Assembly (NCBI GenBank): GCA_003963405.1
Contig: RXIY01000096.1
Coordinates: 1 to 37,302 of the forward strand
Reading direction: 5' to 3'
DNA: 37,302 nt
Origin: Hyphomicrobiales bacterium
GTDB lineage: Bacteria; Pseudomonadota; Alphaproteobacteria; Rhizobiales; Beijerinckiaceae
The notes beneath the pieces were generated by a model that was not told where the DNA came from, ran no database searches, and saw only the letters and a program-made list of their open reading frames with translations. Both the position numbers and the translations under genes were made by a program. Below are positions 7,208 through 31,970 of the stretch, in pieces (position 1 is the stretch's first letter; the number at the start of each line of letters is the position of its first letter).

Positions 7208-7248
7208 GGCGCTTCCTCGCGAAAATCAATCGGCATGGTCGGTCGCCA

Positions 7249-10200
7249 CTAGCGACCGTCGAACGCAGGCTCTGCGTTCGCCATTTGCGGATCCATTCGC
7301 TCGTCCGAAGAGGCGTGCGCATGGACGTCGTCTGCTGTTGGCTTGATCCGGAACCACGCGGCGTAGAGCGCAGGAAGGAAGAGCAGGATCAGCACCGTGC
7401 CGACTGCCGTGCCGCCGATGAGCGTATAGGCCATCGATCCCCAGAAGACGGAGTGTGTAAGGGGGATGAAGGCCAACACGGCGGCAAGCGCGGTCAGGAT
7501 CACGGGCCTCGTGCGTTGCACCGTGGCTTCGATGACCGCGTGATAATCATCGAGGCCTGCGGCGCGGTTCTCCTTGATTTGTTCGGTCAGGATCAGCGTG
7601 TTGCGCATCAGGATGCCAGCCAGTCCGATCAGGCCGAGAATGGCGTTGAATCCGAAGGGCTGGTTGAAGGCGAGCAACATAGGCACGACGCCGACGAGGC
7701 CGAGCGGCGCGGTCAGCATGACCATGCCCATTGTCGAGAACGATCGCACCTGGAGCATGATGACGATCAGCATGGCGGCGATCATGGCCGGGAAGATCTT
7801 GACCAGCGCGACGTTGGCTTTGGTCGCCTCCTCGATTGAACCGCCCGTATCGATGCGGTAGCCGGACGGAAGGGATGCAATCAGCGGCTGGAGGGCCGTC
7901 ATGATCTGTTTGGAAATCTCCGGAGGCTGGGTCGCTTCATTGACGTCAGAGCGGATCGTAATAGCGGGCGTGCGATCGCGGCGCTTCAGAATCGGCTCTT
8001 CCAGACGGATTTCCGAGTGGCCGATCTGGTCGAGCGGAATCTGGCGGCCGTCCCGGCTCATCAGCGAGAAATCCGCCAGACGCGTTGGGTCCAAACGCTC
8101 GCCGCCGGCGCTGCGCGCCACGATGGGGACGTTGCGGATGTCCTCGCGGACCTGCGTGACAGAGATGCCCGTAAGGAGGAATTGGAGCTGCTGGCCCACC
8201 TCCGCTGGCGAGAGGCCGATGAGGTTCAGTCGATCCTGATCCGGGATGAAGCGAAGCACGGGCGTGCGATTGCCCCAATCGCGGTTCGCTTGCCGCACGT
8301 CGGGCACGCCACGCATGATGCCGAGGGCTTTTTCAGAGATATCGTACAATTGCGCGGGATCGGGCCCCATGACCCGAAACTCGACCGGGAAGGGCGTGTA
8401 GGGTCCGAACACGAGCTGAGTGACGCGCACATAGGCCTCAGGCGCCAGCCCCTGTGACACGGCCGCTCGGAGCCGGCTCTTCAACGCCTCGCGCGCCTCT
8501 GCGTCCGGCGTCAGCACGACGATCTTGGCGAAGGCGGAGTCCGGCAGTTCCGGCGACATCGCGAAGAAGAAGCGGGGAGCGCCCTGACCGACATAGCTCG
8601 TGACGATCTTCGCCTCGGCCTGGCTGTTCAGCCAATGTTCGAGCTTCTCGACCGTGGCGGTCGTCGTCTCAATGCTGGCGCCGTCCGGCAGGCGAACCTC
8701 CACCAGCACTTCGGGGCGATCGGATGTCGGGAAGAACTGCTGTTTGAGCGCGCCCATGCCGGCGCCGGAAAGCGCGAAGGCGATGCCGACGATGCCGCAC
8801 GTTACGAACTTGTGGCGCACGGCGAATGTGATGAGGCGTCGTAGACGCTGGTAGTTTGGCGTGTCGTAAATCGCGTGAGAGCCGCCTTCGATTGGCTTGA
8901 ACGCGGGCAGCAGCTTGACGCCGAGATAAGGCGTGAAGACCACCGCGACGATCCAGGAGACGATGAGGGCGAACCCCACGACCCAGAAGATGTTGCCGGC
9001 GTATTCGCCGGCCGACGAGCGCGCGAAGCCCACTGGCAGGAAGCCGGCAATCGTCACGAGCGTGCCGGACAGCATCGGCGCCGCGGTGTGGCTCCACGCA
9101 TAGGCCGCCGCCTTGATGCGGTCCATGCCCTCTTCCATTTTCACCACCATCACCTCGATGGCGATGATGGCGTCGTCGACGAGAAGGCCGAGCGCCAGGA
9201 TGAGGGCGCCGAGCGTGATGCGGTCGAAGAAGCGGCCCGTTTCCAGCATGATGAGGAACACGACGGCAAGCGTCAGAGGGACGGCGGCCGCCACGACGAT
9301 GCCGACGCGCCAGCCGAGGCTGAGCAGGCTCACCAGCAGCACCACGCCGAGCGCCATCGCGAACTTCATCATGAATTCATCAACCGCCGAGGTGATGTTG
9401 ACGGCCTGGTCGCTGACCTTGGCTAACGTCATCCCGAGCGGCAGGGTCTGTGCGATGGCTGCGGACCTCTCCTCCAACGCCTTGCCAAGCGCGAGACCGT
9501 CCCAGCCCTCCTGCATAACCGCCGCGAGCATGATGGTGGGCTCGCCCTGGTGTCGGATGATGTAGGTGGGGGGATCCTCGTAGCCGCGGCGGACCTCGGC
9601 GACGTCGGAGAGCTTCAGCGTGCGCCCCGCAGCCACGATTGGCGTGTCGGCGATCGCCTGGACGCTGTCATAGGCCCCGTCGATCCGGATGAAGACCTGC
9701 GGCCCCTTTGTGTCGATCGAGCCTGCCGGCGTGACGGTGTTTTGCCTCTGCAGGGCGGCGACAATATCCTGCGCCGACACGCCGAGGGTCGCCAATTTGG
9801 CGTAGGAAAACTCAACGAAAATCTGTTCGGGACGTTCGCCAAGGATATTGATCTTCTTGACGCCGGGCACGTGCAGGAGGTCCTGGCGGATGGTTTCGGC
9901 TTGCCTTGCGAGCTCCCGCATCGGCATGCCTTTCGCCTTGAGAGCGTAGAGGCCGAAGCTCACGTCCGAATATTCGTCATTGACGAAAGGGCCGAGCACG
10001 GTGGACGGCAGCTTGCGGGCTTCATCCCGGAGCTTTTTGCGGGCTTGGTAGAACTCCTCCTGCACGCTCGATGGCGGCGTGCTGTCCTTCAGCGTGACCG
10101 TCATATAGGCATAATCTGGCCGTGTGGTCGTCTCCACGCGGTCGTACCAAGTCAGCTCCTGAAGCCGCTTCTCCAGCGGTTCGGCGACGAGGTCCTGCAT

Positions 10201-12213: not shown

Positions 12214-12966
12214 ATGTTCAAGAAGACTGGGGCGACGACCATCGGGTCTGTTTCCCGTTTGGTCCACCGCGAGCGTATGTGCTTCTTCGTCATGGCGCTC
12301 GGCGGTTTGTTGCTTGGGAAGGCGGAGCCCCTTTCAGCCGAAACGCTTCTCTCCGCGCTTGCGCGGGCCTATGCCGGCAATCCGGATCTCAACCAGAGCC
12401 GCGCCGCCGTCCGCGTCCGGGACGAGGAAATGCCCAAGGCGCTTGCCGGGATACGGCCCAAAGTCAATATCCAGGCTTCCGCAGGTCCCCTTTATGGCAA
12501 TCTGCGCTTGTCGGCCGGGCGAAACGCAATGACCGGCCAGCGTCAGTTCACGCAGGAATATTATACGGGCTATCCGCGCGGCGCGGCGCTCAACGTGTCG
12601 CAAAGCATTTTCGACGCAGGCCGCACGACAAATTCGGGAGACAGGCCGAGGCGAACGTCTTCGCAGCGCGCAACCATGAGGCTCACCGAGCAGGCGACCC
12701 TGCAAAACGGCGCAACCGCCTATATGAACGTGTTGCGCGACACGGCGATCGTGAATCTGCGCAAGAGCAACATCGCCGTGTTGCGCTATTATCATCGGCA
12801 CCGCTATTACCGCCGGGGCTATGGTTATCGCTACGATCCCGCCGGGGCGATGTTCGCCGGCGCGGCGCTCAGTATCATGGGAGCGGGCATTGCCGCCGCC
12901 ACGGCGCCCCGCTACTAAGGCTGGGGTTATCCCTATGGCGGCTGGGGGATGGTGAAGGGGGCTTAA
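12214..12966 (+). pseudogene. Chimeric TolC-like outer-membrane protein pseudogene
   Basis: Residues 1 to about 190 are the N-terminal part of a TolC-type outer-membrane channel: signal peptide, ALARAYAGNPDLNQSRAAVR, and QATLQNGATAYMNVLRDTAI. Between about 12634 and 12677 the family sequence (RQAEANVFAAR) is only readable in another frame, so one small deletion shifts the frame and a second one restores it. At about 12783 the TolC sequence stops abruptly and a different Tyr/Arg/Gly-rich coding tail begins (YRRGYGYRYDPAGAMFAGAAL). That tail meets TAA at 12916, yet continues in frame as GWGYPYGGWG to another TAA at 12964. The product cannot make a TolC barrel. It lies after the tetR gene, suggesting the efflux locus once had its own channel. 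Confidence 0.8.
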
Positions 12967-12978
12967 ATTGTGCTTCTT

Positions 12979-13644
12979 TCAGCCGAGCCGGTATTTATCG
13001 AGCCAGTTGGTGAGGGTCTGGTAGCTGAGCAGTCCCAGGATGGCGGCCGTGTGCGTCTTGTTGCCATGCGCGGCACCCATGGCCCGGGCGAGATAATGTC
13101 GCGCCACCTCGGCTAGCAGATCAGGGAGATCGATACCCCGCTCCAGCGGCCGATTCAGCACGGCGGCGACATCGGTCTGCGAGCGCGGCGACAGGGCGTC
13201 AGCGATGTCCTCCACCTCGATCCCCGCGCCGTCGCTCCAAACGGGCGCCCGGCGGAGCGTGTTCTCCAGCTCGCAGATGTTTCCGGCCCACATCTGCCGC
13301 ATCAGCAGGCTTTTCACCTCAGCCGAGATATTCCTTGGCGTGAAGCCAGGCTCCCTCGCGCTCTGTTCGTTTATCCGCTTGAGCAAGCCATCGATCAGGG
13401 GCTCCAAATCGCCCACGCGCTCGCGCAGCGGCGGCATGCGCAGAACCAGAACGGCCAGGCGGTAAAAAAGATCTTCTCGAAAACGGCCAGCGGCCACTTC
13501 GGCGGCGAGCTCGCGGTTGGTCGCGGCGATGACGCGGACATCAACCTGCAGGGTCTTGTCGTCCCCCATGCGGCGGACTTCCCCCTCCTAAAGCGCCCGC
13601 AACAGCTTCACCTGACCCGCGAGCGGCAACTCCCCGATTTCGTC
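12979..13644 (-). pseudogene. Broken sigma-54-dependent activator (NtrC/AcoR type)
   Basis: The minus strand encodes the second half of an AAA+ sigma-54 activator: DEIGELPLAGQVKLLRAL, a TAG where CAG (Gln) is expected (near 13590), then [31 protein letters not shown] and ELENTLRRA. It ends in a Fis-type helix-turn-helix (HTAAILGLLSYQTLTNWL). An internal ATG at 13569 gives a 196-codon frame. Walker A, the GAFTGA loop and the sensor domain are missing upstream of 13644. The loop normally reading WPGNVRELEN is altered to WAGNICELEN. It is a truncated gene with a nonsense change, not a working regulator. Confidence 0.85.
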
Positions 13645-17043: not shown

Positions 17044-17367
17044 ATGACCGGACATATCAAACTCGCGGTGGGTGCGGCCCTAGCTGCTGCCATGGCTACC
17101 TTGGCGCCGAGCGCCGCATCGGCCCTGCCAGTAGCGACTGAAGGCGCTATTTCCCGCGCCGCGCCGGGCGTGGAGAAGGCCGGCTTGGTTTGCGACGATT
17201 GGGGACGTTGCTGGCGGACAGCCCCCTCTTACTATGGGGGCGGTTGGGGGCCAGGCCCTTACTATGGTGGAGGCTGGCGACCCCGCCCTTGTGTCCCTCG
17301 GCAATCAAATTTGGCTCGGGATTATCTGCGGCCTTTCATCACTCTGAAAGAGGTCTTGATTTCGTAA
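17044..17367 (+). CDS. Small secreted Gly/Tyr/Trp-rich protein
   Basis: 107 aa, with GAGAGGATTAA just upstream of the ATG. Residues 1-28 are a signal peptide (AVGAALAAAMATLAPSAASA). Then comes VEKAGLVCDDWGRCWRT and repeats of YYGGGWGPGP. Short exported proteins of this kind are common in Hyphomicrobiales and have no known function. The last 25 residues (after RPRP) depart from the Gly/Tyr pattern, so the original end may have been lost by a frameshift or junction. Confidence 0.65.
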   Translation: MTGHIKLAVGAALAAAMATLAPSAASALPVATEGAISRAAPGVEKAGLVCDDWGRCWRTAPSYYGGGWGPGPYYGGGWRPRPCVPRQSNLARDYLRPFITLKEVLIS

Positions 17368-17480
17368 CCAGGCAATTGGTTGGCTTCAGGCTTGGCGGGA
17401 AGGCAAAATTCAGGCAGCTTAGGAGTGCCGCAATGCCTGAGGGGGGCTATGCGCAGAGCTATAATAATAGAGAATCAACG

Positions 17481-17909
17481 ATGTATAAAAAAATCCTCAT
17501 TCCGATTGATCATGACGCACCTGAGATAGTCGAACGCTCGCTTGGCGTCGCCCAGGCCCTCGCCAATGCTGACGGCGGGGCGCAGCTGCGGCTGATCAAT
17601 GTACAACCGCTCGTACCCGTAAGCTTGCTTGGCTATCTCCCACCGAGCTTCGACGAAGACATGCAAAAAGACGCCGAGAAGAAACTTGCAGAAATCGCCG
17701 GCAAGCTGTCCTGGCCGTCTGTGGCGCCTTCGACTGTCGTGCGTTACGGCGCCGTCTATCCTGAGGTCCTTGCTGAAGCTGAAGACTGGGGGGCTGATTT
17801 GATAATCGTCGGTTCGCATCGGCCGGGAATGGCCACTTATCTTCTGGGCTCTAGCGCCGCTGCGATCGTGCGCCATGCGAAATGCTCGGTGCTGGTCGTG
17901 CGCGAATAG
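17481..17909 (+). CDS. Universal stress protein (UspA family)
   Basis: 142 aa, the usual single-domain length. It starts MYKKILIPIDHD, carries LRLINVQPLVPVS in strand 2, and ends with the ATP-binding-type signature ADLIIVGSHRPG, then LLGSSAAAIVRHAKCSVLVVRE. The G-x2-G-x9-G-S/T pattern is close to that of ATP-binding Usp proteins. The ATG at 17481 was chosen because family similarity begins there; the frame is open from 17190, but that part overlaps the preceding gene. A weak AGAG lies upstream. Role: general stress resilience. Confidence 0.9.
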   Translation: MYKKILIPIDHDAPEIVERSLGVAQALANADGGAQLRLINVQPLVPVSLLGYLPPSFDEDMQKDAEKKLAEIAGKLSWPSVAPSTVVRYGAVYPEVLAEAEDWGADLIIVGSHRPGMATYLLGSSAAAIVRHAKCSVLVVRE

Positions 17910-18535: not shown

Positions 18536-21500
18536 ATGAAGGTCAATGACCGAACGATACGGCGCGCCTTGATCGTCGTCGCGCTGGGCGGGCTCGCAGT
18601 TGGGCTTGTGGCCACGCTTGCGGCGCGGTCCGAGATCGCGCACTGGGCCTGGATCACTGGAACGGCGCCAGTTATCACAGTTCTCTTGTTTGCGATTGTC
18701 CGTGACCTGCGCGCCGGCCGAATGGGCGTCGATCTGCTGGCGCTCCTTTCGATGGCCGCGGCTCTTGCACTTGGCGAAACCCTCGCCGGAGTGATCGTCG
18801 CCGTCATGTACGCCAGCGGCCAGGCACTGGAAGACTACGCGGTCGGGCGCGCGGAACGAGACTTGAAAGCACTCATCGATCGCGCGCCGCGCGTCGCACA
18901 TCGAAAGCGCGGTGACGCCCTCGAAGATGTGCCGATCGACCAAGTCGCGGTTTGGGACACGATTCTCGTGAGCGCCGGCGAGGTCGTTCCGATCGACGGC
19001 CAGGTCGCTAGCTCCAGCGCCTTGATCGATGAGTCCATGTTGACAGGCGAGCCCCTCCCTGTGATGCGACAAGTCGGCGAAGCTGTGAGTAGCGGCACGA
19101 TCAATGTCGGCGAGACATTCGAGATGCGCGCCAGCGCGACAGCGGGCGACAGCGCTTATGCCGGAATCGTTCGGATGGTCACTGCGGCGCAGACCGCCAA
19201 GGCGCCATTTATCCGTATGGCGGATCGCTATGCGCTTCTACTCGTGCCCGTCACGCTTTGCATTACCGGCGTCACTTGGTGGCTGTCGGGTGATCCCATC
19301 CGAGCGCTGGCGGTGCTCGTTGCGGCGACGCCCTGCCCTTTGATCCTGGCTGCGCCGGCCGCCTTTATTGGAGGCACCGCGCAAGCTGCGCGCCGCGGCA
19401 TCTTGGTCAAGGGCGGCGGGCCGCTCGAGACGCTCGCGCGCATCCATACCGTGATGTTCGACAAGACCGGAACCTTGACGGTTGGCGGCGCTCGCCTCGT
19501 GGCCGTTGAGACCGCTCCTGGCGTGGCGCCCGACGAAGCGTTGCGGCTTGCAGCCTCTCTCGAACAGGCGTCGCACCATGTTCTGGCGGCGACGATCGTG
19601 TCCACAGCTCAAAGCAAAGGCCTCTCTCTTCACGCACCTGATAATGTTCGCGAGGCCTTGGGATCCGGATTGGAGGGCGTCATAGAGGGGCGCAAAGTCA
19701 GCGTCGGCTCACTCCAGTTCGTCCACGGCGAAGGCCGGCTCGAGGAATGGGCGCGCCGGGCCGCCCGGCGCGCATCCTGGCGTTCGGCGCTTACGGTGTT
19801 CGTGGCCGTCGACGGCCGCGTGATCGCAGTGCTTTTATTCGGCGACGAGCTACGCCGCGAAACGCCGCGAGCCATTCAGGCTCTGCGACGTGCTGGCGTC
19901 GCCAGGATCGTGATGGTGACGGGTGATCGTGCCGAACCGGCCGAAACGATCGGCGCGGCCCTCGATCTCGAGACGGTGCTTGCCGAGCGCGTTCCCTCCG
20001 ACAAGGTCGACGCGGTCGTCATGGAGCGACGGCTCGCTCCAACCTTGATGGTTGGCGACGGCATCAACGATGCCCCAGCTCTTGCCGCGGCAAATGTTGG
20101 CCTGGCCATGGGCGCGCGCGGAGCGAGCGCCTCCTCGGAGGCTGCAGACGCGGTCATTCTGGTCGATCGGCTGGATCGCGTCGCCGAGGCGGTTGCGATC
20201 GCCCGGCGTACGCGGGCGATCGCGATGCAAAGCATGATCGCGGGAATGGGCCTGTCGGGAATAACAATGATCGCCGCTGCGTTTGGATATGTGACTCCGG
20301 TCGCTGGAGCACTCATCCAAGAGGCCATCGACGTCAGTGTGATTCTGAATGCGCTGCGCGCGCTTGCGCCGCGGGGCGCCTTCGATCAGCCTCCGATGTC
20401 GGAAGCAGCAGCGACCGTTCTTCGCGAGGATCACGAAAGGATAGAGATTAGCCTTGAGCGCCTACGTCAAATCGCAGACGCGCTGGATGGCGCAGAGGCG
20501 GCCGAGGCGGTCGAACATGTTCTCGAGGCCAATCGGATTGTGGAGACGGTCATCGTCGGACACGAACGCGAGGACGAAGAGACGATCTATCCGCGCGTAT
20601 CGAAGTATCTCAACGACAGCCATGGGTTGAGCGCCATGAGCCGCGCCCATCGTGAAATCTTGCATCAGGCCAGGCTGTTGGGGCGCTTGTCGGACGGGCT
20701 GCGGCCGAATGAGGCTGAACCCTATCTCATACGCGACGCCCAGCGTATCATTGAGTCCATCGAATCTCTGGTGCATATACACAACGCGCAGGAAGAAGAC
20801 ATTTATGAGCACGCTGCGGCCCGGCTGGGCCTTGAGGCGAGTGCGCCGCGCGATGGGACGCCGAGGATGCATTCCGGACGTGGATCTGCGGCATTTGAAC
20901 ATGCGCTCGAAAGCGCGTCCGAAGGCAGAGGACGTTGGCCAATGCTCGCGGGCGCGCTGATCCTCCTTGCTCTGGTGGCCGGCGGCGCTTATTGGGGCGG
21001 CGACTTTTTTGCTCGCTTTCGCCCTGGGGTGCCCTTGGCGGAACGCAAATTGAGCGAGATTAAGACCGTGGGCGTTGTCAGCGGCGAGACGGAAATGCCG
21101 ATCACAGCTAGCGTCTCTGGGGTCATCGCGGCGGTTTCTTGCGACATCGGTTCCATTGTGAAGGCTGGGCAGGTTTGCGCGGAAATCGACTCCCGCCCGT
21201 ACCGTCTCATTGTCGAACGCAGCAATGCCGATCTGACTCTCGCCAATGGCCGGCTCACGAAGGCCAAAGCCCAATTTGCTCGCGCGCAAGCGACCTATGA
21301 GCGAGCCCAGAATCTCTCTAACCGCAAAGCTATCGCCTCCAGCGCGCTGACGGCCTCGCAAAAACTATTGGAGCAAAGGCAGGCGGACGTCGTACGTGCA
21401 GAAGCCTCCGTCGCCCTGATCGAAGCGGCGCTCAGTTCGGCGCGAGGCGATCTCGAGCGCACCTCCATCCTTTCGCCAATTGAGGGGACCGTGGTCGCGC

Positions 21501-21973
21501 GAGACGTCCGGACCGGCCAAACGGTTGTCGCCGGCCATCCTCTGTTTCGCGTCGTCGCCGATCCTCGCATCGTGAAAATCAGAGTTAGCGTCGATGTACG
21601 AGTTGCCACCGCACTGCGAGTCGGCGACGCGGTGTCGTTCAGCGTCGAGCGGGAGCCCGACTATCGGTTCGAAGGCCAGGTAACGCAGATTTCCATTGAC
21701 CCGAGGGCGACGGAACCCTCCGGGAAATATGACGTCGTCGTCACCGCGGCCAATCCGGATCTGCGGCTCGCGCCGGGTATGTCGACGACGATCCGGATGA
21801 CGCCTCGGAGTCAGGCCGCTCCCGCCGCCCGACGACGACATAAGTCTCCGTCCCAATCTGCCGATGACGCCGTCAGTCAAAAACGGCGACAGCATACCCG
21901 TAGCCTCGGACGGAGCGTTCTTGCGCGCCATTTAGGAGGCGGCGATAATCAAACAGGCGCCACGGCCGGCTGA
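18536..21973 (+). CDS. P1B-5-type metal ATPase fused to hemerythrin and HlyD-like adaptor domains
   Basis: 1145 aa, in one uninterrupted frame. Residues 1 to about 610 are a P1B ATPase without N-terminal metal domain: TGEP (about 169), TPC metal motif T265-P-C267, DKTGTLT with Asp309, and GDGINDAPAL (about 507). The usual HP dipeptide reads HH in EQASHHVLA. Residues about 626-761 are a hemerythrin HHE domain (H633 in EDHERI, GHEREDEE, HIHNAQEED). TPC plus C-terminal hemerythrin defines P1B-5 ATPases such as Sinorhizobium Nia (Ni/Fe export). Unusually, a membrane helix (about 801-822) then leads to a HlyD-type adaptor (about 838-1090): SGVIAAVSCDIG, coiled coil, SPIEGTVVARDV. The last 50 residues are basic and low-complexity. 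The ABC gene follows after 30 bases, suggesting one operon. Confidence 0.92.
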   Translation: MKVNDRTIRRALIVVALGGLAVGLVATLAARSEIAHWAWITGTAPVITVLLFAIVRDLRAGRMGVDLLALLSMAAALALGETLAGVIVAVMYASGQALEDYAVGRAERDLKALIDRAPRVAHRKRGDALEDVPIDQVAVWDTILVSAGEVVPIDGQVASSSALIDESMLTGEPLPVMRQVGEAVSSGTINVGETFEMRASATAGDSAYAGIVRMVTAAQTAKAPFIRMADRYALLLVPVTLCITGVTWWLSGDPIRALAVLVAATPCPLILAAPAAFIGGTAQAARRGILVKGGGPLETLARIHTVMFDKTGTLTVGGARLVAVETAPGVAPDEALRLAASLEQASHHVLAATIVSTAQSKGLSLHAPDNVREALGSGLEGVIEGRKVSVGSLQFVHGEGRLEEWARRAARRASWRSALTVFVAVDGRVIAVLLFGDELRRETPRAIQALRRAGVARIVMVTGDRAEPAETIGAALDLETVLAERVPSDKVDAVVMERRLAPTLMVGDGINDAPALAAANVGLAMGARGASASSEAADAVILVDRLDRVAEAVAIARRTRAIAMQSMIAGMGLSGITMIAAAFGYVTPVAGALIQEAIDVSVILNALRALAPRGAFDQPPMSEAAATVLREDHERIEISLERLRQIADALDGAEAAEAVEHVLEANRIVETVIVGHEREDEETIYPRVSKYLNDSHGLSAMSRAHREILHQARLLGRLSDGLRPNEAEPYLIRDAQRIIESIESLVHIHNAQEEDIYEHAAARLGLEASAPRDGTPRMHSGRGSAAFEHALESASEGRGRWPMLAGALILLALVAGGAYWGGDFFARFRPGVPLAERKLSEIKTVGVVSGETEMPITASVSGVIAAVSCDIGSIVKAGQVCAEIDSRPYRLIVERSNADLTLANGRLTKAKAQFARAQATYERAQNLSNRKAIASSALTASQKLLEQRQADVVRAEASVALIEAALSSARGDLERTSILSPIEGTVVARDVRTGQTVVAGHPLFRVVADPRIVKIRVSVDVRVATALRVGDAVSFSVEREPDYRFEGQVTQISIDPRATEPSGKYDVVVTAANPDLRLAPGMSTTIRMTPRSQAAPAARRRHKSPSQSADDAVSQKRRQHTRSLGRSVLARHLGGGDNQTGATAG

Positions 21974-22003: not shown

Positions 22004-22729
22004 ATGGATCAGCCCGCGATAACGCGCCCTGCCGTTTTCCTCGCGCGGGGCCTATGCAAGAGTTACGTTTCGGGTGAGCGCGTAATCTATGCGCTACGCA
22101 ATCTGGATCTCGACATCTACGAGGGCGAGTTTGTCGTTCTACTGGGGCCCTCCGGATCTGGAAAGTCGACATTGCTCAATATTCTCGGCGGGCTCGATAC
22201 GCCGACCTCGGGAAATGCTGCTTGGAGGGAACACGTACTGACGGGGGCGAGCGAAGCGGAGCTCACACGCTATCGACGCGAACATGTCGGGTTCGTATTT
22301 CAATTTTACAATCTGATACCCAGCCTCACTGTATTGGAAAATGTCCAACTCGTCGCGGAGATCGCCTTAAATCCAATAAGGCCGGAAGTTGCGCTGGATC
22401 TCGTCGGGCTCTCTGAAAGGCTTGACCATTTCCCGTCGCAGCTTTCGGGCGGAGAGCAGCAGCGCGTCGCTGTCGCGCGTGCGATTGTTAAACGACCGGA
22501 TGCGCTTCTATGCGACGAACCGACAGGCGCCCTCGATCTTGAAACCGGCAAAATGGTCCTTGCGGCGATCGCCCGCGCGAATGTAGAGATCAGGTCAACG
22601 ACGATCGTCATTACACATAACAGTTCTATAGGGGGAATGGCCGACAGAGTCCTGCGTCTCAGCCAAGGCCGCATTAGCGCTGTCGAACACAATCGTCGCA
22701 AGATCGAGCCAAAGGATTTGAGCTGGTGA
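22004..22729 (+). CDS. ABC transporter ATP-binding protein (LolD/MacB-like)
   Basis: 241 aa. Walker A is GPSGSGKST (about residues 48-56), the Q-loop lies in [12 protein letters not shown], the signature is LSGGEQQR (about 147), Walker B is [11 protein letters not shown], and the switch His is in [21 protein letters not shown] is typical of the MacB/LolD class that powers FtsX-like permeases. These move lipoproteins, peptides or antibiotics, or act mechanically on the envelope. Its stop overlaps the permease start by four bases, so translation is coupled. Short and soluble; no fused permease. Confidence 0.95.
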
Positions 22730-25086
22730 GCATGCTCGATCGAAAGGTTCTCCGTGACCTTTGGAACCTACGTGGGCAGGTGGTGACGATTGCGCTTCTT
22801 GTCGCCGCTGGCGTCACGGTCCTAGTCGGATCGGTCAGCGCCTATGTTTCTCTCGTCACAACAGCGGAGAATTATTATCGGATGAATCGCTTCGCAGTGC
22901 TTTGGGCCGATGTGAAGCGCGCCCCGCGCAATTTGGCGGGTAGGATCAGCGAAATTCCCGGGGTCGGCATCGTCGAAGCGCGTGTTGTTAAAGAGGTCCG
23001 GGTCGACTGGCCGCAATCGGAAACGGCAGTGTCCGGGCGGATGATCTCGCTCCCCGACGCAGGGCAATCGGAATTGAACGGCCTCACGATTTCGATCGGG
23101 CGTTCCGTCGATCCGGCTCAGCGGGACGAGGCGGTCATCAACGCGGCTTTTGCGGAGAGCTGGAACGTTAGACCTGGCGACGCCATAGACGTCGTTCTAA
23201 ACGGACATGCGCAGAAATTCCGCATCGTCGGGATCGCAAATTCTCCCGAGTTCGTCTATGCGGCGACCCCTGGCAAGCCGCTCCCAGACGATCGCACCTT
23301 TGTAGTCATGTGGGTCGCAGAAAGGGCGGTCGCTGCTGCTTTCAACATGGAAGGCGCGTTCAATTCACTCACGTTGTCGCTCGCTCCCGAGGCGATGGAG
23401 GCTCAGGTGATCGCCGAGATCGATAGAATCTTGGCGCCTTATGGAGCGGTTGGCGCCTTCGGGCGGCGCGATCAGCCCTCACATCGCTTTCTCTCCGACG
23501 AACTCGCTGAGCAGCGAACGCTGGCCTTGACGGCGCCACTCATCTTTTTTTCGATTGGAGCGTTTCTGCTCAATATCGTGCTGACACGGCTAATCGAGGC
23601 ACAGCGCGAGCAGATCGCGGCTTTAAAGGCGCTCGGCTTCCCTTCCGTCCCGATCGCCATGCATTACGCAAAATTTGTCGGAACAATCGCTCTCGCCGGT
23701 TCCCTCGCAGGCGTCTTCATGGGGATTCGTTACGGGCAGGGAATGGTGGCCAATTACCGACCATTTTTCCGCTTTCCGGACCTCGTTTATGTCGTACCGA
23801 CCTGGCTCCCTGTCCTGGCGACATTGGCAAGTCTCGCTTCGGCCTTGAGCGGCGCGGCGCTGGCGGTACGGCGGGTGCTAAGGTTGACCCCGGCGGAGGG
23901 AATGCGCCCGGAGACGCCTGCGGGCGTCGCATTTCGCTTTGCCGACGAACCAATTCTAAGGAGATGGGGCCCCCGCACGAAGATGGTCTGGCGCGCGATC
24001 CTCGGCCGACCTGTGAAATCCGCATTGACCGTCCTCGGTCTAGCGCTCGCATTGCCGATGGTTGTCATGGGTCTGTTCTGGTGGGACGCTCTCGCCTACA
24101 TGGTCGACGTCCAGTTTCGATTCGTCGAGCGCGCTGATGGGACCGTCACGATTGATGAACCCGTCTCTGATCGGGCTGTCCGTGAGATTGCGCATTTGTC
24201 GGGGGTTTGGGCGGCAGAGGGGTTGCGTGTCGTTCCTGTGCGGCTTTCGGCCGGCCACCTTAATTATCGCATGACGCTCACTGGCCTGGACGCCGACGCG
24301 GTCTTGCGCGCGCCCCGGGACGAGCGTCTGAGGGTCCATGCAGCCCCCCCAGAAGGACTGCTGTTGACTCGCGGTCTTGCCGATAGGTTGCATGTCGCGA
24401 GGGGGTCGGTCGTTGTCGTAGAATGCCTCGAAGGTCGCCGGGACGTGTTCCAGTTACCAGTCGCTGCCATCGTCGACGAGGCCCTCGGTTACAACGCTTA
24501 CGTGGAAATTGGCGCACTCAACCGCTTGCTTCACGAAGGACGGGTGGTCAACCAAGTCGTCATGAGCGTCGATCCAACGCAATCGAATTCGATTTGGCGA
24601 CGACTCGCGGAACGTCCGCACGTGATGACGACATCGGTCAAATCGGCGTGGCTGCGCATCTTCGATGAAAAAATCGGCGGGCTTGTCGTTCTTGCCGCCG
24701 TCGTACTGACGGCCTTTGGCGTAATCATCAGCGTGGCGATCGTCTATAACAGCGCTCGCATCGCCCTGCAGGAGCGCGCATGGGAGCTGGCGAGTCTCTG
24801 CATCCTGGGCTTTACGCGCGGGGAAGTGTCAAGGATTCTTTTGGCGGAGCTCGGCGTGCAAATCGCAACATCCATCCCCTTGGGCCTCGTGCTCTCGCAA
24901 TATATCGTGACGGTCATTCTTGCCGCGCGCAGCAATGAGAGCTTTAGCATTCCGCCTGTCATCAGCAACGCCACCTTCGCCTCCGCGACGCTTATTGTGT
25001 TCGGCGCAGGCGCGGCAAGCGCGTTGCTCGTGTGGCGGCGGATTGATCGGCTAGACCTCACGACGGTTTTGAAGACGCGAGAATGA
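22726..25086 (+). CDS. FtsX-like ABC transporter permease
   Basis: 786 aa from GTG 22726, nine bases after AAAGGA; an ATG at 22732 is the alternative. The layout is a long FtsX-type permease with two FtsX cores. It has one membrane helix near residue 15-35 and a large extracytoplasmic domain. A three-helix bundle follows ([20 protein letters not shown] through [12 protein letters not shown]-type helices), then a second extracytoplasmic domain and a final bundle ending in [14 protein letters not shown]. The family partners with a LolD-type ATPase and often a HlyD adaptor, exactly the flanking genes here. Substrate unknown; similar DevC/HrtB-like systems export glycolipids or relieve metal/heme stress. 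Confidence 0.92.
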
Positions 25087-25087
25087 A

Positions 25088-26281
25088 ATGAAAAATGCAT
25101 GGCGCGTGCTGATCGGCGCAGTCCTTGGTCTTGGAGCCTTTGGAACCCTGTATTGGGCGTTTCGTCCGACGCCTGCCATTGTTGAGATTGCGACTGTAAC
25201 CGAAGGGACATTCCGGGCGACTGTCGAGGAGGACGGCAAGACCCGAGTCCGCGATCGTTATATAGTGTCCGCGCCTCTTTCTGGCCGTCTGTTGCGGATC
25301 GCAGTCAAAGCCGGGGACGAAATTAAGGCAGACAGCGTCCTCGCATGGATTGTTCCGGCGCAGCCAAGCATTCTCGATCCGAGGTCGCGGCGCGAGGCGC
25401 AGGAAAAGCTAGGCGCCGCGGAGGCGGCGCTCCAAGAGGCGTCCGCTCGTTTGGATCGGGCGCGGGCCATACTGGATCAGGCCAAAACAGATGTGCAGCG
25501 CGTTCGGATTCTCGAGCAACGCGGTTCCGCGACCGCTCAGCGGAGGGAACGGGAGGAGCTCAACCTGCAAACGAGCGAGCGCGAATTCAAAGCGGCGGAG
25601 TTGCGCAAACACGCAACCGAACACGATGTCGAGCTCGCGCGCACCCTGCTTCGGCGCTATGACGACAAAACCCCCGACGAGCGGTGGAAGGTGACGGCGC
25701 CCGTTGATGGACGCGTGCTGCGCGTCGTCCAGGAGAATGAGGCTGTCGTTACGGTAGGTGCGCCTTTGGTGGAAATCGGCGATCCCAGCGACCTGGAAGT
25801 CATTGTTGATTTGCTCACGACCGACGCCGTTAACGTGAAGCCTGGCGCCGACGTTGAGCTGGAGCGATGGGGAGGGCCGGCTGCTCTGCGTGGTCGTGTT
25901 CGACGCGTTGAGCCGGGCGGATTCACCAAAGTGTCCGCCCTTGGCGTGGACGAGCAGCGTGTCTGGGTGATTATCGACATCACGTCTCCCCGCGAGCAAT
26001 GGTCCTCTTTGGGGGACGGGTTTCGGGTCGATGTTCGCATTGAGACCCAGACACTTCCCCAGGTGGTTATCATTCCTGTCGGAGCGTTGTTTCGACGCGA
26101 AAGCGGATGGGCGGTTTTCACCGTGGAAGACGGCGTCGCGCGCGAAAAGCGAGTCGATTTGATCGTCCGCTCAGGTCGACTCGGGGCGGTCAGATCGGGA
26201 TTACACCCAGGGGAACAGGTCATAATCTTCCCCCCAAGCAATTTGACAGAGGGCTCACGCGTCCAGCTCAGGCCGAGCTAG
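25088..26281 (+). CDS. HlyD-family adaptor of the ABC exporter
   Basis: 397 aa; its ATG lies one base after the permease stop. One N-terminal membrane helix (about 7-25) is followed by the first lipoyl half (APLSGRLLRIAVKAGDEI) and a long coiled-coil hairpin (about 95-195, Glu/Ala/Arg-rich). The second lipoyl half (APVDGRVLRVVQENEAVV) and a beta-barrel with IPVGALFRRESGWAVFTV follow. It would link the FtsX-type permease to an outer-membrane channel. This is a free-standing adaptor, in contrast to the adaptors fused to the two P-type ATPases on either side. Confidence 0.93.
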   Translation: MKNAWRVLIGAVLGLGAFGTLYWAFRPTPAIVEIATVTEGTFRATVEEDGKTRVRDRYIVSAPLSGRLLRIAVKAGDEIKADSVLAWIVPAQPSILDPRSRREAQEKLGAAEAALQEASARLDRARAILDQAKTDVQRVRILEQRGSATAQRREREELNLQTSEREFKAAELRKHATEHDVELARTLLRRYDDKTPDERWKVTAPVDGRVLRVVQENEAVVTVGAPLVEIGDPSDLEVIVDLLTTDAVNVKPGADVELERWGGPAALRGRVRRVEPGGFTKVSALGVDEQRVWVIIDITSPREQWSSLGDGFRVDVRIETQTLPQVVIIPVGALFRRESGWAVFTVEDGVAREKRVDLIVRSGRLGAVRSGLHPGEQVIIFPPSNLTEGSRVQLRPS

Positions 26282-27170: not shown

Positions 27171-30100
27171 ATGGGGAGGCCGGATCGGGATCCCGCGCCG
27201 ACTGGGGGCGACTATTGGTCGAGAGCCCGGGTTCATGCCTTCGCCCGGCTGGCCGCCACTTTCGGCGGGATTTATATTTGTTCCCTTGTGTGGGCGCCGT
27301 TCTTATCGACGTTCACCTGGGCGTTGACGCTGGCGATTCTGTTCGCGCCCGGTCACAAAGCGATCGAGGAGAGGCTGAAAAGCCCAAATCTCGCGGCCGC
27401 CGCTTCTGTGCTAATTGTCGCGCTGATCGTCGTGGCGCCGATGTTCTTCGTCGCCGAGAGACTTGTTAGCGAGGCGGCAGTTAATGCGGATTACATTCAA
27501 CGTCAGATTGCGTCGAGTGATTGGCGACAGATAATCGAGAGGCGCCCCTGGGCCGCTACACTCAGCCACTGGATTGCGGAGGAGATTGACCTCCGAGCGA
27601 TTGTTGGCCAGGTCGCGTCTTGGCTCACGAACATGGGCGCCGCATTTGTTCGGAAGTCAACCGCTGAGCTCATTGGCGCCCTCATTACTTTCTATGCTCT
27701 TTTCTATTTGCTTCGCGATGGGCGCGTTGCGCTGTTGATGATGAAGCGCATTTCGCCGCTAGCTGAATCTGAGACGAACCTCATCAAAACTCGCGTCGCG
27801 GATACGGTTTACGCAATCATATACGGAACCGTCGTCGTTTCCGCCGTACAAGGCGCTTTGGGTGGACTGATGTTTTGGTGGCTGAACCTGCCAACTCCGC
27901 TGCTTTGGGGCTTGGTCATGGGGATTTTGTCAATCGTGCCAATCCTTGGCGCTTTTGTCGTCTGGATTCCAGCGGCGATCGTTCTGGCGCTCGACGGACA
28001 TTGGACCAAGGCGATTATTCTGGCCTCATGGGGCGCTCTGGTCGTCGGCACGGTGGACAATTTCCTTCGCCCCCTACTGATGAGCGGTCGGCTCAAAATC
28101 CATACGTTCACGACCTTCATCTCATTGGTTGGCGGTCTCAACCTCTTCGGTGCGCCCGGGCTCATCCTTGGACCGGTTGCTGCGACGGTAACGATCGCGC
28201 TTCTTAGTTTATGGCGCACGCGTGACGAGACGATGGAAACGATCGATGGCGTTCCACCTACGCCCCCGGCAAGAAAACTATGGCATTGCGCGTCAATCAA
28301 CGAGGTTTTTGACCAGCTCGGCGTTTCGGCGATGGGTCTATCGACGGCGAGAGCGTTAGAACTGCTCGCCGCTCACGGGCCCAACACTCTGAAAGAAACC
28401 AAACCGATTCGGGCATGGGCGATCTTTTTCGCCCAATTTGGCAGCATTCTCATTTGGATCTTGATCGCTGCCGCCGTCTTATCCGGGTTCCTCGGCGACG
28501 AAATGGACGCGATCATCATCTTGGCCATCGTGTTCCTGAACGCCCTTGTCGGATTTTATCAGGAGTTCAGCGCCGAAAAGTCGATTTTAGCATTAACGCG
28601 GATGACCGCTCCTCGCGCGAAAGTATGGCGCGACGGCGCGTTGACGACCATCGCCTCTGCGGAGGTTGTTCCAGGCGATATTTTGGAGCTGGAAGCGGGC
28701 GACCTCGTCGCCGCCGATGCGCGACTGCTGAACGCAGCGTCGCTCGCTTGCGTCGAGTCCGCCTTGACGGGGGAATCGGAAGCCGTCGCCAAGAGCGCCG
28801 AAACATTAGATCAAACCGACCTTCCGATCGGCGACCGCAAAAACATGGTTTTCATGGGGACCAGCATTGCGACTGGCTCGGGTCAAGCGGTTGTGGTCGC
28901 TACCGCGATGCAGACTGAGTTCGGCGCTATTGCCTCTCTCCTTGGCGAAGCGGGCGAGGATGCCGGAACCCCACTTCAGCAGAGGTTGGAAGTTTTCGGG
29001 CGCGTCCTGCTCTGGGCCACACTCGCGATCGCCTCGCTGCTGTTCGGACTGGGAGTTTGGCGGGGCGGGGATGCGCTTGAACTCTTCATGACGTCGGTCA
29101 GCCTCGCTGTTGCGGCGATACCTGAGAGTTTGCCGGCTGTCGTCACTGCGGCGCTTTCCCTAGGCGTGATGCAGATGTCGCGACGTGGCGCTTTGGTTCG
29201 AAGACTTGCGTCTGTCGAAACACTCGGGTCGACGAATGTAATCTGTACCGACAAGACGGGGACTCTCACGGTCGGACAAATGACCGTGCGGCGTCTATTT
29301 GTTGCCGGGCGGACTTATGAAGTCACGGGTGAGGGCTATGGCCCCGAAGGCGATATCCGCTTTGAAGGTAAGGCTATTGATTCCGGTTTCGGTGGTTTGA
29401 GAGTCCTCGGTGAGATTCTCGTCGGGTGCAATAGCGCTAGTTTAGAGCGAGAGGACGACGCTTGGAAGGTAATCGGCGATCCAACGGAAGGCGCACTCCT
29501 CTCGGCTGGGCGAAAAGCGGGGGTCGACAGAGACAGCCTGGAACAAGAGCAGCCGAAAATTTTCGAGATCCCATTTGACTCGGACCGCAAACTCCACTCG
29601 GTTGTCCGTCGCCTGCCCGAGGGGCGGCTGCGCGTCTTAACGAATGGCGCGCCTGAACTTTTGCTCGAACGTTGCTCGCACATTTTTGGCGAGTCAGGCG
29701 TGCGTCAGATAACGGCTTCCGACCGGGAGGAGATCGCGCGCCGGAACGCTGAATTTGCAGGTGGCGCCTTGCGCGTCCTCGGATCGGCGTTTCGGGATTT
29801 CGATGCCATCACCCTCGATCCATTTGGGTCGCAGACGGTCGAATGTGATCTCGTATTCGTCGGGCTGTCCGGGCTATTCGACCCGCCGAGACCGGAGGCG
29901 AAGGACGCCATCGCCAAGTGCCGAAGCGCAGGCGTTCGCGTCGTGGTCATTACCGGTGACCATCCCCACACCGCGACCGCCATTGGTCGTGACCTCGGGC
30001 TGGATGCCGAAGGCCGCGTTTTGTCCGGCGTCGAGCTGGACAAGTTGACGGACGAGGGCCTCGCGAAAGAAGCGCCGAATACCGCAATCTATGCCCGGGT

Positions 30101-31970
30101 GAGCGCCGAGCATAAGCTAAGGATCATTAAAGCGTGGCAAGCGAATAAGGCAGTCGTCGCCATGACGGGGGACGGCGTAAACGACGCGCCCGCAATAAAA
30201 GGAGCCGATATTGGCGTCGCGATGGGGCGAGCCGGCACGGAGGTGACGAAGCAAGCCTCCGACATGGTCATTACCGACGACAACTTTGCGACCATAGTCG
30301 CGGCCATAGAAGAGGGTCGCGGGATCTATGAAAACATCCGAAAGACGCTTTTATATCTTCTAGCCTGCAATTCCGGCGAACTGCTTTTGATGACGATCTG
30401 CATCATCATTGGCTTGCCTGCGCCGCTCCTCCCAATTCATTTGCTGTGGATCAACCTTATTACGGACGGTCCGCCGGCGTTATGCCTTGCTGCGGATCGG
30501 GTCGACGCCTCGGTTATGAGCAAGCATCCGCGTGAGCGGAACAAGGAAATCGCCGATGAAGAATTTCTTTGGACGATGTTGCTTGTCGCGGCGCCGACGG
30601 CCGGCGTGTCATTCGCCGCTTATGCCTACGGTCTCTATTCCGCGGATTTAGAAATTGCCCGCACCTACGCTTTTATGGCGATGATCTTTGCCCAGCTTTT
30701 CACTTCCCTGGGCGTGCGGAGCCGAGCGCCAATCTGGCGCCAGAGCTTGTTTTCGAACATCGCCCTTCTGATGGTAATCGTCGTATCGATCTCCATGCAG
30801 ATCTCGATACAGCAAAACCACTTTCTTGCAGACCTCCTCAAGACAGCGCCGATTCCATTCAAAGACACGGTCAAATTGTTGACGGTCGCCCTCATGCCTC
30901 TGCTCGCACTGGAAACTGTTAAATTTCTTCAGTCCCTTTTTGACGGGGAGAGGACGGACCGTCTGGGATTCGCCTCGGACCGAGACGAAAGTGATTTTGA
31001 TCGAACTGAACCGACGATCTTTGCTCGAAAGAACGGAGCCGTAGAGACGACTGGGCGCGGCTTGGATTTGGTAAGAGGCTCAGCGATCGGCGTGTTCGCC
31101 ATCATGATGGTTATCGGAGGATGTGTTTATTGGTCCTGGCGACAAGCGCCCGGTATCCAATCCGCTGAAAACGAAGCGCGTGGATTGGTAACCAGTAAAC
31201 TTACGGCGATTGGCGCTGTCAGCACAGAAAGTGCGTCTCCAGTTGTGGCGGCTGCGCCAGGCATAATCGAAACCCTCTATTGCGATGTCGGTGTGAGAGT
31301 TGTCGCCGGTCAGCTATGCGCGAAAATTGATCCGCGGCCCTACCAAGCTGTTGTGGAGCGCGCAAGAGCGAATCTTGCGGCGGCAAGAGCAAAATTTGAA
31401 ACGGACGCGGCGGGGCTTGCGCGCGCGAAATCGGCGCTCGAGCGCAATCAGGCGCTCGCGCAACGCCGCGCCGCAACACGCCGCACGTTGGTTGGTTACG
31501 AAGGCGCCTATAAACGAGCGTTGGCGAAAGCTAAACGTGACGAGGATCTAATCGCCCAACTTCAATCGGAGGTGAACGCCGCCGAAATCGAGCGCGAAAA
31601 AACGAATATCGTTTCTCCGGTTGAAGGCACGGTAATTTCCCGATCCACCGAAATCGGCATGAGAGTAACGGCGGGCTCAGTTGACGCCCCGCTGTTTCTC
31701 ATCGCCTTAGTAAATGCGGAGCTCAAGGCTCAATTTGACGTGAATGACGCCAGCGAGATCAAGATTGGGGACCCGGTCTCCGTCACGGTCGACCACCTGC
31801 CGAACCGCATTTTTCAGGGGACGGTTAAAAGTGTCCTTGAATTGTCGCAGACGACGCTGGGCAATAGGCCCTACAACGTCGTCGTCAGCGCGCCAAATCC
31901 GGAGGCTTTGCTTGTCCCGGGGATGAAGGCGACAGTCCGAATTGCGATCAATCGGCAGAAAGATATATAG
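27171..31970 (+). CDS. PerM/AI-2E-type permease fused to P2A (Ca2+-type) ATPase and HlyD-like adaptor
   Basis: 1599 aa, one continuous frame; AAGGG precedes the ATG. Residues about 20-350 are a PerM/AI-2E transporter-like membrane domain (GLVMGILSIVPILGAFVVW, then LFGAPGLILGPV). Residues about 370-1290 are a full P2-type ATPase: cation-ATPase N-domain (WHCASINEVF), TGES (about 532), DKTGTLT with Asp694, and MTGDGVNDAP (about 1000). Residues matching the SERCA Ca2+ sites are kept: Glu652 (IPESLP), Asn1067 and Glu1070 (CNSGELL), Asn1095, Thr1098 and Asp1099 (INLITDG). A last membrane helix (about 1303-1323) leads to a HlyD-like adaptor (about 1330-1595): AAAPGIIETLYCDVG, coiled coil, SPVEGTVISRST. 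The adaptor shares CD-G-V-AGQ-CA-ID-RPY spacing with the other fused pump. Predicted role: Ca2+ or Mn2+ export across the periplasm; inferred. Confidence 0.92.
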   Translation: MGRPDRDPAPTGGDYWSRARVHAFARLAATFGGIYICSLVWAPFLSTFTWALTLAILFAPGHKAIEERLKSPNLAAAASVLIVALIVVAPMFFVAERLVSEAAVNADYIQRQIASSDWRQIIERRPWAATLSHWIAEEIDLRAIVGQVASWLTNMGAAFVRKSTAELIGALITFYALFYLLRDGRVALLMMKRISPLAESETNLIKTRVADTVYAIIYGTVVVSAVQGALGGLMFWWLNLPTPLLWGLVMGILSIVPILGAFVVWIPAAIVLALDGHWTKAIILASWGALVVGTVDNFLRPLLMSGRLKIHTFTTFISLVGGLNLFGAPGLILGPVAATVTIALLSLWRTRDETMETIDGVPPTPPARKLWHCASINEVFDQLGVSAMGLSTARALELLAAHGPNTLKETKPIRAWAIFFAQFGSILIWILIAAAVLSGFLGDEMDAIIILAIVFLNALVGFYQEFSAEKSILALTRMTAPRAKVWRDGALTTIASAEVVPGDILELEAGDLVAADARLLNAASLACVESALTGESEAVAKSAETLDQTDLPIGDRKNMVFMGTSIATGSGQAVVVATAMQTEFGAIASLLGEAGEDAGTPLQQRLEVFGRVLLWATLAIASLLFGLGVWRGGDALELFMTSVSLAVAAIPESLPAVVTAALSLGVMQMSRRGALVRRLASVETLGSTNVICTDKTGTLTVGQMTVRRLFVAGRTYEVTGEGYGPEGDIRFEGKAIDSGFGGLRVLGEILVGCNSASLEREDDAWKVIGDPTEGALLSAGRKAGVDRDSLEQEQPKIFEIPFDSDRKLHSVVRRLPEGRLRVLTNGAPELLLERCSHIFGESGVRQITASDREEIARRNAEFAGGALRVLGSAFRDFDAITLDPFGSQTVECDLVFVGLSGLFDPPRPEAKDAIAKCRSAGVRVVVITGDHPHTATAIGRDLGLDAEGRVLSGVELDKLTDEGLAKEAPNTAIYARVSAEHKLRIIKAWQANKAVVAMTGDGVNDAPAIKGADIGVAMGRAGTEVTKQASDMVITDDNFATIVAAIEEGRGIYENIRKTLLYLLACNSGELLLMTICIIIGLPAPLLPIHLLWINLITDGPPALCLAADRVDASVMSKHPRERNKEIADEEFLWTMLLVAAPTAGVSFAAYAYGLYSADLEIARTYAFMAMIFAQLFTSLGVRSRAPIWRQSLFSNIALLMVIVVSISMQISIQQNHFLADLLKTAPIPFKDTVKLLTVALMPLLALETVKFLQSLFDGERTDRLGFASDRDESDFDRTEPTIFARKNGAVETTGRGLDLVRGSAIGVFAIMMVIGGCVYWSWRQAPGIQSAENEARGLVTSKLTAIGAVSTESASPVVAAAPGIIETLYCDVGVRVVAGQLCAKIDPRPYQAVVERARANLAAARAKFETDAAGLARAKSALERNQALAQRRAATRRTLVGYEGAYKRALAKAKRDEDLIAQLQSEVNAAEIEREKTNIVSPVEGTVISRSTEIGMRVTAGSVDAPLFLIALVNAELKAQFDVNDASEIKIGDPVSVTVDHLPNRIFQGTVKSVLELSQTTLGNRPYNVVVSAPNPEALLVPGMKATVRIAINRQKDI

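Follow-up and report, generated by a model that had tools for sequence, protein, structure and literature searches.

A three-module P2A-ATPase fusion and related MacA-like C-terminal modules in alphaproteobacterial methanotrophs

Periplasmic adaptors are familiar as components of export pumps. A single gene that appears to join a PerM-type permease, a P2A cation ATPase and an HlyD-like adaptor raises two questions, namely whether such a protein is real and what an adaptor would do at the end of a P-type ATPase. The window, that is the whole stretch of DNA analysed, comprises 37,302 nucleotides of contig RXIY01000096.1 from a Hyphomicrobiales bacterium. The PerM::P2A-ATPase::HlyD gene occupies positions 27171..31970 of the + strand and is open from its ATG over 1599 residues. 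Seven Pfam domains were recognized in the protein, all over their curated cut-offs: AI-2E_transport (residues 31-348), Cation_ATPase_N (371-438), E1-E2_ATPase (478-672), Hydrolase (690-1013), Cation_ATPase (752-838), Cation_ATPase_C (1083-1253) and HlyD_D23 (1343-1587). The joins between the modules show no sharp step in GC content. Another genome of this species (G452, in 6 contigs) carries the unbroken frame with 4745 of 4800 nucleotides identical, and Methylocystis suflitae NLS-7 (G014) encodes a full three-module orthologue, with a frame of 1632 residues and 69% identity to the 1599-residue protein. These observations rule out an assembly join or a frameshift as the origin of the frame. 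The preliminary description, which had placed the three modules in one frame and named an artefact at a module boundary as one possible refutation, is thus borne out, and the fusion is genuine. Between the window gene and the M. suflitae orthologue, Ka/Ks is about 0.24 for PerM, 0.10 for the ATPase and 0.29 for HlyD (rough values, as Ks exceeds 1), which points to purifying selection acting on each of the three modules.

The central module (residues 371-1253; 28281..30929, + strand) was assigned to the P2A cation ATPases using Pfam, NCBIfam and an alignment to LMCA1. It keeps the catalytic motifs TGES533, DKTGT694 and TGDGVND999, together with P651 and E652 in M4, N1067 and E1070 in M5, and N1095, T1098 and D1099 in M6, which we take to be the P2A Ca2+ site residues. 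It resembles SERCA, SPCA and LMCA1 in these motifs and site residues, and its best sequence and fold matches are found among them (SPCA1, SERCA and LMCA1 for the fold, from a low-confidence AlphaFold model). This model, of residues 400-1599, is weak (pLDDT 69.9, pTM 0.54), and topology was not taken from it. Unlike these pumps, the window ATPase has an asparagine, N825 (29643..29645, + strand), in place of the lysine of the KGAPE motif, which is a lysine in LMCA1 (KGGPD); we assume that this position is K515 in SERCA numbering. It is also Asn in the M. suflitae orthologue and in L010 and L012, and Lys in L011. A second departure is Q1175 in M8 (30693..30695, + strand), which aligns to LMCA1 R795 and presumably corresponds to SERCA E908, the M8 glutamate of SERCA site I. 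The earlier claim that all the ATPase motifs and both Ca2+ sites are kept thus stands for the catalytic motifs and the M4 to M6 residues, but not for the M8 residue and the KGAPE lysine. The window ATPase further differs from SERCA, SPCA and LMCA1 by its fusion to PerM and HlyD and by its scores, which lie below the curated NCBIfam equivalog cut-offs (TIGR01522, 629.9 against 798.3; TIGR01116, 587.5 against 703.4), so that a Ca2+/Mn2+-like assignment of the cation stays provisional. Catalytic motifs, orthologue and Ka/Ks together support a probably working P2A pump, as had been proposed. The window protein would be an ATP-driven P2A cation exporter with Ca2+/Mn2+-like sites that has absorbed two partners.

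The N-terminal partner would be an AI-2E transporter, which is encoded by a neighbouring gene in some other organisms. The AI-2E/PerM module (residues 31-348; 27261..28214, + strand) scores 161.2 bits against PF01594, for a cut-off of 34.3, and matches YdiK (7ot9) with an E value of 1.3e-9. On a Rhizobium plasmid, an AI-2E gene ends at 6996 and a P-type ATPase gene starts at 6993, an overlap of 4 nucleotides. The two genes also adjoin on a Haloplanus plasmid, with universal stress protein genes alongside, and in Methylocapsa polymorpha as well as Methylocella tundrae, AI-2E genes are located close to the P1B genes. Because AI-2E and P-ATPase genes adjoin in other organisms, the PerM join looks like the fusion of a pre-existing gene pair, as judged from examples rather than from a count. 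The window also encodes a universal stress protein (Usp; 17190..17909, + strand), and Usp genes are found beside AI-2E/P-ATPase genes on the Haloplanus and Methylocapsa plasmids. Among the matches listed for 39 Methylocystis genomes, three-module frames of 1600-1632 residues occur only in the window genome (G000), G452 and G014. A search of the class gave no other match spanning PerM and ATPase among those listed for 289 genomes, with two candidates scored in each, which says little on adjacency. The architecture had been treated as unique, a view that does not hold, since in Methylocystis a P2 ATPase is commonly fused to HlyD with no PerM. The possibility that the homologues are always separate genes is likewise refuted for the ATPase-HlyD join, in favour of the fusion; the PerM-ATPase join is rarer.

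The C-terminal partner would be a MacA-derived module set on the periplasmic side by an added transmembrane (TM) helix. This module (31191..31967, + strand) scores 106.3 bits with TIGR01730, against a cut-off of 94.9, and its top two Foldseek matches are the MacA structures 9qgy and 3fpp (E value of 3.8e-20 with 9qgy_G). The lipoyl, α-hairpin and β-barrel fold is that of MacA from the MacAB-TolC system. Unlike MacA, the window module is not free-standing and stops after the barrel, without a membrane-proximal domain. M10 of the ATPase is followed by a linker, then by one added hydrophobic helix and finally by the HlyD part. The added helix was located by hydropathy at residues 1301-1319 (31071..31127, + strand) and coincides with an AlphaFold helix at 1298-1325, with a pLDDT of only about 50-76. 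For the HlyD region, AlphaFold predicts this TM helix with modest confidence, a hairpin of two helices that are each about 40 residues long, and confident lipoyl and barrel strands. The α-hairpin, delimited from AlphaFold and the motif count, spans residues 1389-1476 (31335..31598, + strand), with R1425, L1429 and T1436 at its tip. A pair of cysteines, C1371 and C1383 (C-x11-C; 31281..31319, + strand), was identified by alignment in the first lipoyl half. The extra TM helix would make the C-terminus of the window protein periplasmic. Across 14 fused representatives, nine contain an extra TM just before the module, three with COX4-type hosts use the third TM of the host, and two have none over the threshold, with a weaker hydrophobic stretch visible in both. 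On hydropathy, the HlyD module of the fusions thus seems to lie on the periplasmic side.

A second fusion gene is located 5 kb upstream of the giant gene. It encodes a P1B-ATPase::hemerythrin::HlyD protein of 1145 residues (18536..21973, + strand), recognized by Pfam and NCBIfam, with its own cysteine pair (C869/C881). The P1B core scores 508.3 with TIGR01525, against a cut-off of 346.25, and contains the sequence TPCP; we take the TPC motif as the mark of subtype P1B-5. The hemerythrin domain covers residues 627-757 (20414..20806, + strand; PF01814, 30.8 bits against 25.3) and the HlyD module residues 841-1096 (21056..21823, + strand; TIGR01730, 138.6 bits against 94.9). P1B-5 ATPases that bear hemerythrin are known, and the available part of PMC9388753 describes a P1B core with a C-terminal hemerythrin-like domain in A. 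cellulolyticus and in Nia of S. meliloti. Unlike these, the methanotroph proteins add a further TM and an HlyD module, an extension of which the same part of that paper makes no mention. Between the two fusion genes, the window (22004-26281) encodes an ABC ATPase, an FtsX-type permease and an HlyD adaptor that is devoid of cysteine.

The same HlyD module was found C-terminal to several hosts in Methylocystis, in a second PmoA-bearing genus (g176) and in Methylocapsa. The P2 ATPase hosts are of two M6 types. Two P2-ATPase fusions, L002 (G000:C103) and L027 (G010), have the lipoyl and hairpin parts without the β-barrel. P3A H+-ATPases are the hosts in L102 and L105 (TIGR01647, 945.9 and 963.6 bits against 615.5) and in L110, which is below this cut-off at 578.1. 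The F1 α subunit of an alternate N-ATPase is the host in L103, L108 and L117 (TIGR03324 with NCBIfam on L108, 877.5 against 750.5). It resembles its N-ATPase counterparts by this family match and by its N-ATPase-like gene order, as in the L222 operon, where the genes for β, an AtpQ-type protein, AtpR and subunit c were identified by Pfam and the others by position only. Unlike in known N-ATPases, the α subunits of L103, L108 and L117 end in a TM and an HlyD module. Such operons, with an α subunit bearing a C-terminal TM and HlyD module, were seen at two loci, L222 and L224 (G025 and G034). Subunits of the COX4_pro/CyoD type are the hosts in L107, L115, L116, L209 and L220 (assigned by Pfam for L107 and L209, and from motif and sequence for the remaining three). 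COX1 and COX3 genes are located upstream of the COX4_pro gene of L107 at L221 (G005), the sole locus checked. The COX4-type fusions apparently cross the membrane by the third TM of the host itself. The AHSA1 domain is normally cytosolic; in L213 (G543) and L214 (G559), it is followed by a hydrophobic stretch and then by the HlyD module. A multi-TM protein without family call ends in the same module in a MAG of Methylocapsa sp. bog_942 (L244, 1181-2656). On plasmid pRX1 of Methylocapsa polymorpha, P1B::hemerythrin::HlyD is present as two overlapping frames with one frame break (L345, 3123-6700). The mobilizable plasmid pGW6_1 of M. rosea GW6 (L029, L347) carries three ATPase::HlyD frames; the annotations considered, those of two frames, give only the name 'HAD-IC family P-type ATPase'.

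A tree was built by a quick method from 72 modules (55 fused, 7 CC-MacA and 10 other adaptors), the fused rows having been found with a profile that contains such modules and the ten outgroup rows being the next best matches. The 55 fused and 7 CC-MacA modules are separated from the 10 other adaptors at an SH-aLRT of 99. The 55 fused modules group together with a support of 87, below the starred level, and their sister group is formed by the 7 standalone CC-MacA (96). The 15 labels on the tree require 17 changes, against a mean of 46.8 after shuffling, and none of 200 shuffles was as low, a result helped by near-copies. COX4-type fusions of two genera fall in one clade. Apparently, a CC-type MacA adaptor gave rise once to the fused module. 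The hairpin spans 98 residues in all 7 CC-MacA, a length kept in 26 of 53 P-type fusions. The sister relationship would be consistent with mixed rings in which fused modules associate with standalone CC-MacA/MacB and so attach the pumps to exporters of the MacAB type, as would L118 in the genus, a standalone CC-MacA beside an ABC gene that is MacB-like by eye. Such rings are improbable, as the window module shares only 36% identity with the CC-MacA of its own genome and the modules of L002 and L027 lack the barrel.

The C-x11-C pair is present in all 41 modules for which host motifs gave a host call; 20 more fused modules, with a host part cut off or uncalled, also have the pair, which was itself the criterion for grouping them. 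Among standalone adaptors, 7 of 49 contain it, two fragments being left out of the count, and it is absent from the 20 other long frames that had no assignment. Only five columns are invariant among 20 modules, and two of them are these cysteines. Their invariance, and the hemerythrin domain of the P1B host, might suggest that the pair is the working part of the module, acting as a disulphide or metal site through which copper or the redox state of the periplasm would gate the enzyme to which it is attached. We consider such a sensor very improbable, since free CC-MacA of many Proteobacteria keeps the pair equally and it may only stabilise the lipoyl fold. In a scan of named genomes, the first cysteine is present in 78 of 80 matched frames among the matches listed, with a pattern that contained the second cysteine, and the 80 include at least five fusions. 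The pair is thus a trait inherited from the donor MacA family, and a fusion-specific site is ruled out.

The preliminary description proposed that the HlyD part places a periplasmic conduit on the ATPase. In such a model, it would assemble with a channel of the TolC type, through which the pumped cation would leave the cell directly. The MacA fold with its full hairpin would suit such a conduit. In the available part of PMC3391258, the TolC-docking motif is RxxxLx6S, with Thr for Ser in HlyD, an RLT form shown to bind TolC, and single Ser changes in MacA can keep some activity. The window protein keeps R1425-L1429-T1436, which is this RLT form, and a conduit is possible there. Of 63 fused modules (62 distinct cores), only 6 have the RL[S/T] motif, RxxxLx6[S/T], and two of these are the window protein, counted once for each of its two genomes. 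All 7 standalone CC-MacA (6 distinct) of the genus and family set have it. The strict motif, with Ser only, is kept in 2 of the 63 fused modules. The Ser form is present in 54 of 74 frames of the named-genome scan, the 74 including the fused L244 and the fragment L267. The M. suflitae orthologue has an isoleucine in the motif. Motif loss is not proof, but the fused modules, unlike MacA, are borne by non-ABC hosts, and the conduit is weakened because the N-ATPase α and AHSA1 hosts export nothing and the motif is missing in 57 of 63 modules. Moreover, AI-2E, P2 and P1B::hemerythrin units exist without HlyD elsewhere, and the scanned ORFs of the window gave no match to an outer-membrane efflux protein beyond a piece of 234 residues. 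A conduit is thus unlikely for the class. The 234-residue piece (12214-12918) is located near RND genes and is possibly a gene remnant. A piece of a sigma-54 activator of 196 residues (12979-13569) is possibly another.

Among the matches listed, fusion carriers comprise 32 of the 39 Methylocystis genomes. In a sample of 149 genomes of the family, for which 15 candidates were scored per genome and only the best rows considered, carriers were found in two genera, g1 (Methylocystis) and g176 (perhaps Methylosinus, a guess). The M. polymorpha plasmid adds Methylocapsa. The three frames on pGW6_1 suggest a spread of the fusions by plasmid. PmoA is present in 11 of the 149 genomes. Nine genomes carry fusions among the matches listed and all are PmoA-positive, the matches listed for the 138 PmoA-negative genomes including none. 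The PmoA-positive genomes G522 and G541 have no fusion among the matches listed. Within the genus the link is weak, with PmoA in 28 of 32 carriers (from the matches listed) and in 3 of 7 non-carriers; the four carriers without PmoA are drafts, assembled in 60 to 210 contigs. Searches of 397 genomes of the order and 398 of the phylum gave matches from the ATPase to at least position 490 of profile A1 only in G000 and G010 among those listed, with at most three candidates scored per genome in most cases, overlapping samples and few genus members. An HlyD fusion as a general trait of P2 ATPases is not supported by these searches. Of ten long frames examined from genomes other than the carriers, two look like RND::MFP fusions and eight have an upstream codon-position GC unlike coding sequence; none of the ten has a Cys-pair module, with one chance C-x11-C elsewhere. 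The two apparent RND permease and adaptor fusions, L352 (G466) and L353 (G497), consist of one frame of about 1470 residues. These natural fusions, whose RND part was recognized by eye, resemble the present ones by joining adaptor and transporter in one frame. They differ by the absence of the C-x11-C pair and by their host, which is the usual partner of the adaptor.

Intracytoplasmic membranes are a feature of genera with pMMO and are largely lacking in Methylocella. On a plasmid of Methylocella tundrae (L346), an intact P1B::hemerythrin gene stops before the HlyD part and is directly followed by a decayed remnant (7099-8010), with the cysteine pair present and the intact module absent (a single case). 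M. tundrae is without pMMO, according to the available part of PMC6522787. This remnant, together with the broken frame of Methylocapsa polymorpha and the versions without barrel, would fit tails that are passive passengers of repeated gene fusion and slowly decay. We give little credence to this explanation in view of the Ka/Ks of about 0.29 in the window HlyD module, the cysteine pair in all 41 modules that have a called host, and the single clade of COX4-type fusions from two genera.

The module would rather be a transferable tail that, in alphaproteobacterial methanotrophs, came to be joined to several primary ion pumps and energy enzymes. In MacA, the lipoyl/barrel ring and the hairpin build hexamers; in the tail, they would cluster the pumps or bridge facing membranes and not form an efflux duct. 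We tentatively favour, as a real possibility short of a probable one, that the tail is an oligomerisation or tethering element in the periplasm, i.e. the lumen of the intracytoplasmic membranes. The hosts are several and mostly ion-motive, which is in favour of a tether. Also on its side are the grouping of the fused modules, the scarcity of the docking motif among them while 26 of 53 P-type fusions retain the hairpin length, the TM that precedes most of the modules, the PmoA of all nine carriers listed in the family sample and the loss of the HlyD part in M. tundrae. The AHSA1 host, which is not a pump, the RLT of the window protein, the two PmoA-positive genomes without a listed fusion, the weak PmoA link within Methylocystis and the support of only 87 for the fused clade speak against it. 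A broader proposal, which we regard as rather doubtful, is that the MacA-derived module might be a general membrane-organising tail of pMMO methanotrophs, with rings or hairpin zippers in the lumen that cluster machines and help to stack membranes. It would cover three classes of P-type ATPases and at least three unrelated families (F1 α, the COX4-type subunit and AHSA1).

No description of such fusions was found in the literature searched, which was open-access only and partly incomplete in its listings. As a class, the fusion architecture is new to us. One adaptor lineage appears to have abandoned export and now to form the tail of P-type ATPases, of a subunit of an ATP synthase and of a subunit of an oxidase, and database names such as 'HAD-IC family P-type ATPase' conceal this tail. 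If the tail were a conduit, the window protein would be, to our knowledge, the first P-type ATPase with a built-in outlet. In the genomes sampled, the adaptor-tail fusions are confined to methane oxidisers. Should the tail cluster or stack membranes, it would provide a concrete molecule for the membrane organisation of methanotrophs.
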